The notes under the pieces: generated by a model
What the model was told of the DNA's origin: nothing
Database searches by the model: none
The model's input: only the letters and a program-made list of their open reading frames with translations
Translations under genes and position numbers: made by a program
Origin: a virus
Reading direction: 5' to 3' (one strand)
IMG/VR virus record: IMGVR_UViG_3300032116_001466
Coordinates: 1-21,895 of that record
Length of the DNA: 21,895 nt
In this document: positions 5,232 to 15,655 of the stretch, piece after piece
Position numbering within the stretch: position 1 is the first letter of the stretch
Layout: the number at the start of each line of letters is the position of its first letter

Positions 5232-5567
5232 TCAGTACAACCGATAATTCAATACACCTTCAGGGACTGTGATTTTCCTACCAGCAATTTCATATTGCTC
5301 GGTTTTTCTCGCTTTAACGACCCACAACTCCCCGACTTCCATAGACTCATCGGCACCCCTACCCAAGCTTACTTTGAGGGTTTTGTTTCCGATAGTAACT
5401 TCGCGCAATCTACTGTCAGGGCGCTCACCCCGAACAGTTCTAATCTCTACTTCAGGAAGTATAAGTTCTTCCTTTTTGTAGTTAGATAAATTCTCATCGC
5501 GAGATGCCTCAACACGAGCAATAATCTTTAATGCTTTGTCAAGGTCTTTCTGAGCTAAATTTGCCAT
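5232..5567 (-). CDS. Hypothetical protein beside putative origin
   Basis: 111 residues. The N-terminal third is helical and charged (ANLAQKDLDKALKIIARVEASRDENLSNYKKEE). The remainder looks beta-rich (VEIRTVRGERPDS, VTIGNKTLKVSLGRG, GELWVVKARK, YEIAGRKITVPEGVLNY). No signal peptide, membrane segment or known motif is seen. The leader CTAAAACCAAATTATCAATT-ATG is typical of this window, and a perfect terminator follows. It is the first leftward gene from the origin-like region and forms a single-gene transcript. A role in replication control is possible from position alone. Confidence 0.75.
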   Translation of the reverse strand: MANLAQKDLDKALKIIARVEASRDENLSNYKKEELILPEVEIRTVRGERPDSRLREVTIGNKTLKVSLGRGADESMEVGELWVVKARKTEQYEIAGRKITVPEGVLNYRLY

Positions 5568-5689
5568 AATTGATAATTTGGTTTTAGTTGAACATTATTT
5601 AAACTCAGGCATCGGTAGGGTGGCTGGGGTGGGTAGCCTCCTCACATTCACCACAGAAAAAAATTTATTTTTTCTAAATCTGTTATAGT

Positions 5690-5728
5690 GTAATTACAAT
5701 GTAATTACTTGTACAATATCTTGTACAA
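5690..5728. repeat. Two tandem pairs of 8-bp palindromes
   Basis: GTAATTAC occurs at 5690-5697 and 5701-5708 (11-bp period). TTGTACAA occurs at 5709-5716 and 5721-5728 (12-bp period). Each unit is itself a perfect palindrome, and spacing of about one helical turn puts paired sites on the same DNA face. This suggests cooperative binding of dimeric regulators or an initiator. It lies just right of an A/T-rich tract. Confidence 0.7.
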
Positions 5729-5741
5729 CATCAACCCCCTA

Positions 5742-5816
5742 CCCCCAATCTTGGGGGAGCCTTCGGCATAGCCGAGGCTTTCCAGCAGTAAATCTGCTAT
5801 CCGCAGATGTGCTGGA
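5742..5816. repeat. Three consecutive strong hairpins
   Basis: Hairpin 1: CCCCCAA (5742-5748)/TTGGGGG (5751-5757). Hairpin 2: AGCCT-T-CGGC (5758-5767)/GCCGAGGCT (5771-5779), nine pairs and one bulge. Hairpin 3: TCCAGCA (5781-5787)/TGCTGGA (5810-5816), enclosing ATCTGC (5792-5797)/GCAGAT (5803-5808). They abut with almost no spacer, as in single-strand initiation or primosome-assembly sites. They could also act in RNA, as a leader or bidirectional terminator; no T-run is seen. Confidence 0.7.
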
Positions 5817-5876
5817 TAGAGAGATAAGAGTGCAACTAGTTGAAATACTTGATTGTCAGAGAGATAAGTGTTTTTG

Positions 5877-5941
5877 AAGTATATCCCCCATATACTTCAA
5901 GTATATCCCCGATATACTCTGAGTATATCCCCCATATACTT
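5877..5941. repeat. Three 21-bp palindromic iterons, 22-bp period
   Basis: Copies at 5877-5897, 5899-5919 and 5921-5941 follow the plan AAGTATAT-CCCC(C/G)-ATATACTT, each an inverted repeat with 7-8-bp arms around a 5-base C-rich centre. The 22-bp period equals about two helical turns, as in iterons bound by plasmid initiators. The likely ligand is the RepL-like protein encoded at 6150. Confidence 0.8.
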
Positions 5942-5996
5942 TCTCCAAAACAGGGTCAAAAAACCAATGCATATTTTAAATTGTAAATCCAAGCAT

Positions 5997-6016
5997 TGTG
6001 GATAAAATGTGGATAA
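5997..6016 (-). promoter_or_regulatory. Two perfect DnaA boxes
   Basis: TGTGGATAA occurs at 5997-6005 and again at 6008-6016; its complement TTATCCACA is the consensus DnaA box. The start-to-start spacing of 11 bp places both on one DNA face. They sit 56 bases right of the iterons and 134 upstream of the RepL-like start, implying recruitment of host DnaA. Confidence 0.8.
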
Positions 6017-6100
6017 CTTTTGGAATGATAATTCAATTAAGACTCCAGTGTAATTAATATCACTCGCTTAGTCTACAGGGTAAGTAATCCCAAGCATGAC

Positions 6101-6131
6101 TTGACTCATAAGTAGCTTTAATATACTTTTG
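6101..6131 (+). promoter_or_regulatory. Bacteroidota-type promoter for RepL-like gene
   Basis: TTG (6101-6103), 20 bases, then TACTTTTG (6124-6131), matching the Bacteroidota primary-sigma consensus (-33 TTTG, N19-21, -7 TAnnTTTG). It would start transcription near 6138, about 12 bases before the ATG at 6150. This is a short SD-free leader, usual in the phylum. Confidence 0.65.
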
Positions 6132-6149
6132 TGTCGTTAGTATATTTAA

Positions 6150-7004: not shown

Positions 7005-7364
7005 ATGAAAGAGTTTCTTGCAAACATGTTCTTTTGTGCAAACCAGATTAAACTCTGGCATTTGCAGACAACAAGCTATGCTGCCCATCAGGCTTTGGGG
7101 GAGTTGTACGATTTTAGTACAGACTTTACAGATGGCTTTGCCGAGACCTATATGATGAGCGGACCAAAGCTTAAGGCTCCTGTAATTACCAAGAAGTTTG
7201 AAGATTTTGCAGACAGTCAGCAGGTGATTAAGTACATTGATATGGTCGACGGTTATGTAGGCGTTCTGAAAAAGGAACTGGTTGGCCGTACAGACTTGGT
7301 TAATATGCTTGACGAGTTTCGTGCAAAGCTGAACAAGACCAAGTATTTACTTACGCTATCCTAA
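7005..7364 (+). CDS. Dps/ferritin-like helical protein
   Basis: 119 residues, all-helical. The N-terminal pattern ANQIKLWHLQTTSYAAHQALGELYDFSTDFTDGFAE recalls the first helices of Dps/ferritin-like proteins (hxxHW...Y..H......Y......D...E), with H19, H28, D43 and E47 at plausible positions. I associate this layout with small uncharacterised phage proteins (DUF5856-like). Whether it binds iron is unknown, since the second half lacks clear ferroxidase residues. It ends 3 bases before the nuclease gene, suggesting coexpression. Confidence 0.5.
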   Translation: MKEFLANMFFCANQIKLWHLQTTSYAAHQALGELYDFSTDFTDGFAETYMMSGPKLKAPVITKKFEDFADSQQVIKYIDMVDGYVGVLKKELVGRTDLVNMLDEFRAKLNKTKYLLTLS

Positions 7365-7367
7365 TTT

Positions 7368-8201
7368 ATGCCAGTAACCTTTGATGAGGGAGCACATCGT
7401 TATACGTCCAATTCAGGAGAAGTATACGTATCAGTTACAACACTAATTAAGAAGTTCACACCTCCATTTGACTCAGACTACTGGTCTGCGTACAAAGCAC
7501 TCAAAGCCGTTCTCTCTAAAACAGGAGAATGGGATTCCTATAAAAAGAAGGCGGGTGGCTGGGAGAATGTTGTTGTTTATGCCCGTTCAATAGATAAAGA
7601 GTTTAAGTATCGTAAAGAAGTAATTGAGGAAAAGAAAAGGATTCTTTCCGAGTGGGAACAAACCAAAGAGATTGCCCTTGTAAAGGGTACGGAGTACCAC
7701 AAGATGAAAGAAAAGAGAGTAAAGGAGAATGTAGTCTACGGACCTGATATGAAAGAGATTTCTGTCCTGTCGGGCGTAGACCTCCTTTCCGCTCAGGATT
7801 TCAAAGCCGATGGGTTATATCCTGAATTGATTCTTTACAATGATGATTGGAGACTTGCCGGTCAGGCAGACTGGGTTATGAAAAACGGAAACACAGTTCA
7901 TATTAAGGATTATAAAACCAGTAAGGAGATTTCCGAGACAGCGTTCCAAGACCAGTGTCTTCTACCCCCTCTGTCGCATCTGCCTAATTGTAATTACTAC
8001 ACTTATTCTCTGCAGTTGTCTCTATATGCGCTGATGCTTGAAGAACATGGATTTACCATTGGGAATCTTGCAATAGAACATGTGAACAAGGAAACTTTTG
8101 ATACTATTCAAATGTATCCTGTTAAGTATATGCGTAAAGAGGCGAAAGATGTAATTAAACACCATTTGAAAAATGCTAAAGTTCTCAATAGAAAAGCATA
8201 A
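7368..8201 (+). CDS. PD-(D/E)XK family nuclease (Cas4/RecB-like exonuclease)
   Basis: 277 residues with the ordered motifs of this nuclease superfamily: G107-T-E-Y-H111, E153 (YPELILY), G-Q-A-D168-W-V, the catalytic D181-Y-K183 (VHIKDYKTSKE), and the trailing Q216-L-S-L-Y220 helix (YSLQLSLYALMLEEHG) typical of RecB/Cas4-like exonucleases. Such enzymes process DNA ends in recombination, replication or packaging. It overlaps the following gene by 29 bases and lies two genes upstream of TerL, so it may prepare DNA for replication or packaging. Two cysteines (C197, C208) are present, but the four-Cys Fe-S cluster of Cas4 is not. Confidence 0.85.
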   Translation: MPVTFDEGAHRYTSNSGEVYVSVTTLIKKFTPPFDSDYWSAYKALKAVLSKTGEWDSYKKKAGGWENVVVYARSIDKEFKYRKEVIEEKKRILSEWEQTKEIALVKGTEYHKMKEKRVKENVVYGPDMKEISVLSGVDLLSAQDFKADGLYPELILYNDDWRLAGQADWVMKNGNTVHIKDYKTSKEISETAFQDQCLLPPLSHLPNCNYYTYSLQLSLYALMLEEHGFTIGNLAIEHVNKETFDTIQMYPVKYMRKEAKDVIKHHLKNAKVLNRKA

Positions 8202-14191: not shown

Positions 14192-15655
14192 ATGAGAATC
14201 GTATCGAGAATTGCTAACAATTTGCTGCATAGCCGTAACACCGCCACCATGCGTGAGCTGGAGAAGCTTTTTGCAGTAGCTCCTAATCTGGCGGCAAAGA
14301 CTATCCGTCTTTTCCCTCAGCATTCTATTTCCTTCCTTACCGAAGGTCTTGGTGAAATTTATGACATCAAAGCTCAATCTGACAGCTTTGTTGGCGTAAA
14401 CGACAAACAGTACAAGTGGAAGATTCGTGGACATCAGGTTCCTCGCATTAAGTTTGCAACCCGCTCAACAGGTGGTGCTATCACCAGCGGCTCTACTCTT
14501 GGTGCAAACGGTCTTGAATTTATCGTAGCTTTCAACAGTGCTTACTACAATCCTTATGACATCATCAAACTCGAAGACAACAGCTTGCTTTTTGTAACTG
14601 CCGGTCCTGTGTTTATTGGTGAAGGTGTGTGGGAATACACTGTTCGTGTCAACACGAATGTTATGACCGAAGGTGTTTCATCTGCTCTTTGCGTTGCCGG
14701 TCGTGACTCTGGTCCTGCTGGTAAAGCATTCCCTGAGCTTTCTGACCGTGGATATCTGTCCACCACTCAGGCTCATGAGGAGCATGTAAACTACCTGACC
14801 AAAGTGCGTTACGACTGGACTTGGTCTGCTGACGCTGCTGCTACTAAGTATCTTATTGAAGATATCGTTCCTCACAATGGTAAAGCCGTTAAGGTTAACT
14901 ATGTGACTGACGAACTCTTCCGTGCTGCTATGGAGCAGTTTCACCTGAATAAGGAAATGGAACTTATCTATGGTCGTACTACAATGGATGCTAACGGTCG
15001 CTGCTTCCTGCAAGACCCTAAGACTGGCCAAGATATCGTAAAAGGCGACGGTCTTATCGCTCAAATTGCTGACAGCCAAAAGCAAACCTACAGCAAACTG
15101 ACTATCGGTCTGCTTGAGGATGCAATGTCTGACCTGTCACTCCGCTCACCTAAACCTACTGGCAACACTTGGTTGATGACCACTGGCCGCGAAGGTTATA
15201 AGGAATTTGGCCGCCTCATGCGTGCTGAGCACAAGGCAGGTTGGCAGCTTCAGCCGAATTCTTATGTTCAGACTAAGAACGGAAAGATTCAACTGGGTGC
15301 TGAGTACAACGCCTACACCTTCCAGGGTAACACAATCGTTGTAAACGTGAACGGAGTATTTGACCATCCTGCTAACCCTTCAGAGAAAGACTCTAACGGT
15401 AAGCCACTTGAGTCAAGCAAGTTCCTGTTTATCGACATGTCTACTTATGACGGTGTAAAAAATATTCAGATGATTGCTAAAGACGGACGCTCCTTCATCA
15501 CTGGACTCGTAGCGGGTATCGGTGGCGAAGACGGAAAGACTTCCGGTGCTGCAAGCTCTACTCTGGATGGTTCTTCTAAAACTATCATTGGAACAATGGG
15601 TGTGGTTCTCCACAATCCTTATTCCTCAATGATGCTTGAGAAGAAAGTGTCTTAA
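14192..15655 (+). CDS. Major capsid protein (HK97-fold expected)
   Basis: 487 residues, the usual size of crAss-like major capsid proteins, placed after the portal and scaffold-like genes. The N-terminus is short and helical (MRIVSRIANNLLHSRNTATMRELEKLFAV), followed by mainly beta sequence with many Gly/Ser/Thr and aromatic residues. No signal peptide is seen. Codon use is rich in GCT, GGT and CGT, as expected for a highly expressed gene. A region around 265-300 (KLTIGLLEDAMSDLSLRSPKPTGNTWLMTTGREGYKEF) resembles the spine-helix and P-domain strands of HK97-fold proteins; this is pattern reading, not a fold prediction. It builds the icosahedral shell. Confidence 0.8.
   Translation: MRIVSRIANNLLHSRNTATMRELEKLFAVAPNLAAKTIRLFPQHSISFLTEGLGEIYDIKAQSDSFVGVNDKQYKWKIRGHQVPRIKFATRSTGGAITSGSTLGANGLEFIVAFNSAYYNPYDIIKLEDNSLLFVTAGPVFIGEGVWEYTVRVNTNVMTEGVSSALCVAGRDSGPAGKAFPELSDRGYLSTTQAHEEHVNYLTKVRYDWTWSADAAATKYLIEDIVPHNGKAVKVNYVTDELFRAAMEQFHLNKEMELIYGRTTMDANGRCFLQDPKTGQDIVKGDGLIAQIADSQKQTYSKLTIGLLEDAMSDLSLRSPKPTGNTWLMTTGREGYKEFGRLMRAEHKAGWQLQPNSYVQTKNGKIQLGAEYNAYTFQGNTIVVNVNGVFDHPANPSEKDSNGKPLESSKFLFIDMSTYDGVKNIQMIAKDGRSFITGLVAGIGGEDGKTSGAASSTLDGSSKTIIGTMGVVLHNPYSSMMLEKKVS

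Follow-up and report, generated by a model that had tools for sequence, protein, structure and literature searches.

Iteron plasmids of the Rep_3 type (R6K, RK2, P1 oriR, F) carry tandem repeats about two helical turns apart beside the gene for a winged-helix initiator, often together with DnaA boxes. The classical iterons of these plasmids are directional and are bound by Rep monomers. Monomer activity of Rep is also covered in a review, where plasmid pSK639, with five 22-bp repeats, is an example of the type (PMC5703833). Plasmids of the pSN2 family, whose initiator is RepL (PF05732), are classed in reviews as rolling-circle replicons (PMC5703833). According to one paper, iterons are absent from a RepL plasmid (PMC11389370). 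In phage P1 the lytic origin oriL is an AT-rich stretch inside the repL coding sequence, for which no iterons are mentioned (PMC9948254). DNA replication of the crAss-like phages has been described as unknown (PMC10136315). According to the papers that cite Schmidtke 2025 (PMC12977533, PMC11652158), the prototypic crAssphage (Carjivirus) is a linear phage-plasmid with repL. In the reference crAssphage, repL is present in two copies (PMC7551546). It is an actively pursued question whether crAss-like phages can exist as plasmids. The literature searched contained no account of iterons at RepL genes of Crassvirales, nor of a general connection between RepL and iterons; Schmidtke 2025 might describe such an origin.

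The locus described here consists of three palindromic repeats before a repL-like gene on a crAss-like phage. As in the Rep_3 plasmids, tandem repeats spaced by about two helical turns accompany the gene of a winged-helix initiator, but here the units are palindromic, their centre may point either way and the initiator is RepL, not Rep_3. Given the palindromic units, their covarying arms and their flippable centre, it is filed as a variant of the iteron origin and not with the Rep_3 type, whose repeats are directional. With the RepL plasmids (the pSN2 family and relatives in Priestia, Sodalis, Arsenophonus, Escherichia and Campylobacter) it shares a homologous initiator and a 21-22 bp array shortly before repL, while the sequence of the repeats differs and the carrier is a crAss-like phage with a relative of 100.7 kb. 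The lytic replicon of phage P1 (repL/oriL) is similar in gene name and in being a phage replication gene, whereas oriL lies within repL and the present array lies upstream of it. The prototypic crAssphage likewise belongs to Crassvirales and has a PF05732-type repL, but no 22-bp array was found beside the repL of crAssphage ZA. We propose, with a probability of roughly 0.78, that the three palindromes are the binding sites (iterons) of the RepL-like protein and that the intergenic region containing them acts as a replication origin, as in RepL plasmids.

The array and its phage fragment

The window, i.e. the whole stretch of DNA analysed, is a linear IMG/VR record of 21,895 bases without end repeats. 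Its MCP matches Crass_capsid (PF23898, E 1.7e-48), its terminase and portal have PHROG matches (E about 1e-62), and the CrAss_Ring_2 and crAss001_48 families are also present. This capsid protein and set of structural genes identify the window as part of a crAss-like (Crassvirales) phage genome, so that the repeats had rightly been placed inside a phage genome in the preliminary description. The MCP (14192-15655) is at most 28% identical to its best matches in the GenBank phage set, and the lineage possibly represents a new branch of Crassvirales at family level. A search of the phage collection with the region and with the RepL-like protein gave no match.

Genes left of about 5570 run leftward and those right of 6150 rightward, and the GC skew of the window changes sign around 5750, with an inflection at the array. 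The features of this intergenic region and its flanks are listed in Table 1.

Table 1. Features in and around the divergent intergenic region of the window.
Feature	Position	Strand	Remarks
First leftward gene, 111 aa, without family match	5232..5567	-	Start 310 bp from array
Divergent intergenic region, proposed origin site	5568..6149	.	Leftward genes before, rightward genes after
Hairpin block	5736..5815	+	CCCCCTACCCCC / CCAATCTTGG stem, GCCTTCGGC stem-loop, CCAGCA...TGCTGG stem
Palindromic unit 1	5877..5897	+	AAGTATATCCCCCATATACTT = AAGTATAT CCCCC ATATACTT; read directly; kept in L004, L005, L006
Palindromic unit 2	5899..5919	+	AAGTATATCCCCGATATACTC = AAGTATAT CCCCG ATATACTC; read directly
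Palindromic unit 3	5921..5941	+	GAGTATATCCCCCATATACTT = GAGTATAT CCCCC ATATACTT; read directly
Two exact DnaA boxes TTATCCACA, 11 bp apart	5997..6016	-	Between array and repL
Predicted Bacteroidota-type promoter (TTG, 20 bp, TACTTTTG)	6101..6131	+	About 19 bp before repL ATG; sequence match only
repL-like initiator gene, 180 aa	6150..6692	+	Winged-helix core about residues 46-116

The start-to-start spacings of the three 21-bp units are exactly 22 and 22 bp, giving an array of 65 bp. With a three-unit identity of 0.88 it is the best tandem array in the window, where other periods from 14 to 39 reach at most 0.65, and in 100 whole-window shuffles, over all periods from 14 to 39, the identity did not exceed 0.69. 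At offsets 3-9 from the centre, all seven arm pairs of every unit pair as complements (21/21; z 10.8 relative to shuffles); chance is no explanation for an identity and a complementarity of this order. The unit centres are C-rich and asymmetric, and folded as ssDNA the three hairpins reach a z of -10.6. Within the window the exact unit is present in three copies, all inside 5877-5941, and an Rfam search returned sub-threshold matches only, none of them over the array. Direct reading therefore bears out the earlier description of 21-bp units, three in number, that recur every 22 bp and are inverted repeats around a C-rich centre. The array had also been placed just upstream of the initiator gene, which it does precede, but with a gap of 208 bp.

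The window's RepL-like protein scores below the Pfam cut-off against PF05732 (E 0.005, 16.7 bits, cut-off 20.3), while its homolog in the relative L006, 66% identical to it, scores above (23.5 bits). A profile of four relatives compared with a profile of nine RepL proteins aligned over 105 columns with a probability of 97.4% (E 1.5e-11). By these sequence comparisons the protein is assigned to RepL (PF05732), and its earlier designation as RepL-like, weak by Pfam alone, was right. The AlphaFold model (mean pLDDT 59.6) is confident only for residues of about 40-120, which show the order of helices and strands of a winged helix. A structure search with this low-confidence model gave weak generic winged-helix matches (best E 0.02), and a sequence search against solved structures with the protein gave nothing useful. 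The promoter predicted for repL, which we take to be of the Bacteroidota type by its general consensus, lies 160 bp from the array and is one of four such matches on the plus strand of the window, with none on the minus strand.

The DnaA boxes between array and repL are the only exact matches in the window, and at least two boxes occurred in 1 of 100 shuffles. They are not kept in the relatives: L006 has none, and L004 has a single box that contains a mismatch. The idea that such boxes generally belong to RepL loci was not supported.

Further along the repL gene cluster the window encodes a DUF5856/starvation-inducible regulator-like protein (7005-7364, PHROG 858), followed by a PD-(D/E)XK exonuclease (7368-8201). 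No partition or repressor gene was identified in the 21,895-base fragment, and as a sign of a phage-plasmid lifestyle for this phage the RepL origin is suggestive only.

Related phages and the symmetry of the units

Scanning of viral contigs with the RepL-like protein yielded four relatives, namely L004 (a 100.7-kb record in which the final 50 bases are found again near the beginning), L005, L006 (86.6 kb) and L007, the last being identical to the window over the shared stretch. Each has three units with a 22-bp period in the same intergenic region, and in L005 the array is intact with other open frames separating it from repL. Units 2 and 3 of L004 and L005 have a reversed centre (GGGG on the plus strand) and arms ACTATA/TATAGT instead of AGTATA/TATACT. 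In both long relatives (L004 and L006) the units are confined to this one array, and the gene strand switch coincides with the array in these two as in the window. GC skew had been suggested as a check on the origin; the inflection in the window lies at the array, but the cumulative minimum lies 4.6 kb (L004) and 2.6 kb (L006) to its left. The skew is thus supportive but not precise.

To the left of the array, at a distance of 60-140 bp, lies a GC-rich hairpin block (CAACCCCCTACCCCCAATCTTGGGGG, a GCCTTCGGC-type stem-loop and a third stem) that also occurs in L006 (9676-9755), L004 (9504-9575) and L005 (5955-6030), its first 36 nt being near-invariant across the four relatives. Its folding is significant in the window (z -5.7) and in L006 (z -4.7), but falls short of significance in L004 and L005. 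A role of the block in priming or termination is possible.

In ZA, the one complete prototype-type crAssphage examined, where RepL scores 31.6 bits and so passes the cut-off, no array was detected by direct or dyad scan. Nine named or crass-like genomes searched with PF05732 contained no RepL, which is therefore not a general crAss-like trait. Taken together, these genomes confine the finding to one crass lineage and to RepL replicons at large.

A link to RepL independent of this lineage came from a scan of 2.9 million viral contigs with one 17-bp unit sequence (GTATATCCCCNATATAC). Besides L007 it matched 17 contigs, and tandem copies surround the match only in L008. This contig encodes a bona fide RepL (PF05732, E 4e-9) 85 bp after the array; the protein is only 24% identical to that of the window, and the phage is unrelated to the window's. 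The matches in the other 16 contigs are single, lack flanking tandem copies and are probably due to chance, and a search with the poorly designed pattern TATMYCCCNNTATA, which found no match, is uninformative. In all nine loci with RepL of the L008 type (L041-L049), three units follow each other at 22 bp, within 0.15-2.1 kb of repL; their core is TATACTG[GT]GGATATA or close to it and can face either way. In L043-L049 other genes, up to about 2 kb, lie between an intact array and repL. By eye, the translations of those at L044 1501 and L046 2093 resemble seryl-tRNA synthetase and a nucleotide/RNA kinase.

Covariation was assessed in 20 distinct units from 12 phage loci. Offsets 4-7 are nearly fixed as TATA/TATA, whereas offsets 8 and 9 are complementary in 15/20 and 18/20 units, respectively, through swaps of G-C for C-G and of A-T for T-A (p 0.0005 each by shuffling). 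The inner bases are non-complementary and flip between units (patterns CCC, CGG and GGG). On this sequence evidence the covarying arms are read as a trace of selection for two-fold symmetry of the site, either in double-stranded DNA or in a hairpin. The direction of the centre changes even between close relatives, unit 1 being reversed in L041, L042 and L046 with respect to L043-L045, L047 and L049, and also between the units of a single locus, the short metagenomic contig L084. In L041-L049, where unit 1 flips, the RepL proteins are more than 90% identical to the L008 query, and units 2 and 3 keep their direction. An asymmetric centre that can point either way suggests binding of the site by a RepL dimer.

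In the proposed origin, repL would be transcribed from its own predicted promoter and a RepL dimer would bind each palindrome, as the symmetry and covariation of the arms and the flippable centre suggest. With the units two helical turns apart, the 22-bp spacing would set three dimers on one face of the DNA. The AT-rich stretch between array and repL may then open, with DnaA at its two boxes helping, and primase, helicase and polymerase would load. An array of 65 bp and an initiator of 180 aa are small enough for direct cloning and testing.

Since crass phages inject RNA polymerase (PMC10136315) and the units form hairpins, these could instead serve as hairpin promoters for the giant virion RNA polymerase, as in phage N4. 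Such a role is weakened by the two long relatives, in which the units are found in this array and not before other early genes, and by the same layout beside repL in plasmids and in L008-type phages; we regard it as highly improbable.

RepL loci of plasmids, genomes and phages

RepL loci were gathered from plasmids, genomes and phages, and the 450 bp before each repL were scanned for the best three-unit array against shuffles. In the main scan, with one base of slack and spacings of 16-30 bp, a significant array was found before repL in 24/29 loci, every one with a mean spacing of 21-22 bp, compared with 4/87 control windows (spacings 21, 23.5, 27 and 29.5); without the three crass loci in which the idea arose the count is 21/26. 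In an independent version of the scan, with near-copies removed and exact spacing required, the best period was 22 bp in 21/28 loci, and the array was strong at 22 bp in 19 loci and at 21 bp in two more. Among 84 control windows from the same loci, two had a best period of 22 bp and one was strong, at 23 bp. Some of the loci are related to one another, and the counts are therefore not fully independent. The locus thus shows two marks of an iteron-type origin, namely tandem repeats spaced at about 20-22 bp next to the gene of an initiator, and conservation of these repeats in relatives together with a link to the initiator family. Conservation of the repeats, a check proposed in the preliminary description, holds in all three relatives that are not near-copies as well as in these 24 RepL loci, so that its reading of the layout as that of an iteron plasmid origin gains comparative support.

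Significant loci occur in Bacteroidota (Chryseobacterium), Bacillota (Priestia, Streptococcus, Ectobacillus, Ureibacillus and others), Pseudomonadota, Campylobacterota and Cyanobacteriota, and unit sequences are wholly different between groups. Dyad symmetry within the unit is significant overall (combined p 6e-10, in a set that includes the crass loci) and, array by array, in about half of the cases; about half of the plasmid arrays have no significant dyad on their own. The staphylococcal loci are database records, a Staphylococcus RepL sequence having served as a probe only; plasmid pWKT1 has a 22-bp array (z 5.3), pSAM1 was negative in the array scan and Tunicatimonas was weak and under the threshold (z 3.4). 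Also under the threshold in the main scan were the RepL loci L073, L083, L094 and L103. L073 is a 74.9-kb viral contig that encodes a distant RepL (27% identity); before this gene, at about 5870-5960, the eye picks out two palindromic units that are nearly identical and some 44-46 bp from each other, and the three-unit scan of this contig was below significance. RepL itself was found in 2/395 Bacteroidota genomes.

Repeated palindromes between divergent genes are a typical arrangement of operators, and the matches of the RepL-like protein to AbiEi-like and DpnI_C-like winged helices show how general this fold is. RepL or another repressor might accordingly bind the palindromes to control the divergent promoters, making the region a transcription switch and not an origin. 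The distances of the array from the predicted repL promoter and from the start of the leftward gene (Table 1) weaken this account, as does its persistence in L005 and L043-L049, where repL has been displaced. The same layout on small plasmids that encode little beyond repL and mob also counts against a switch, which we consider quite unlikely.

Rolling-circle replication, in which the units would be ssDNA hairpins of a double-strand origin nicked by RepL, agrees with the published class of the pSN2 family (PMC5703833), with the strong hairpin potential of the units and with the conserved GC-rich hairpin block upstream. However, neither of two nine-sequence RepL alignments has a column with at least 60% His, so that the histidine pair of the HUH motif, which in rolling-circle initiators goes with a catalytic tyrosine, is absent; conserved tyrosines are present, which makes a non-HUH nuclease possible. 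RepL proteins are moreover small (about 150-180 aa) and contain a winged helix. At least three units with a fixed 22-bp spacing make up the layout expected of an initiator-binding array and not of a single nick site. Rolling-circle nicking at the units is an unlikely alternative to the iteron-type origin.

For the family at large, RepL initiators, although usually filed as rolling-circle, seem on these comparisons to be generally tied to 22-bp iteron arrays, often palindromic. A wider and tentative proposal, to which we give somewhat less than even odds, is that RepL proteins are widespread small winged-helix initiators that bind as dimers to palindromic 21-22 bp iterons with a centre in either direction, so that RepL replicons would be iteron-type and not rolling-circle, and that some Crassvirales use such an origin to replicate, or to persist as plasmids. 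If true, RepL would leave the rolling-circle group, with a pattern spanning Bacteroidota, Bacillota, Pseudomonadota, Campylobacterota and Cyanobacteriota. The array would then provide a sequence handle on the origins of numerous small plasmids, staphylococcal ermC plasmids among them, and could mark possible phage-plasmids within Crassvirales.

CCCC was found before RepL arrays in 15/26 loci against 79/406 control windows, and strong folding in 9/26 against 5/52; a CCCC/hairpin block upstream of the arrays as a shared RepL feature is a lead only. In the staphylococcal RepL plasmids L108 and L109, a GGGGG/CCCCC hairpin block that recalls the crass block lies before the repeats.
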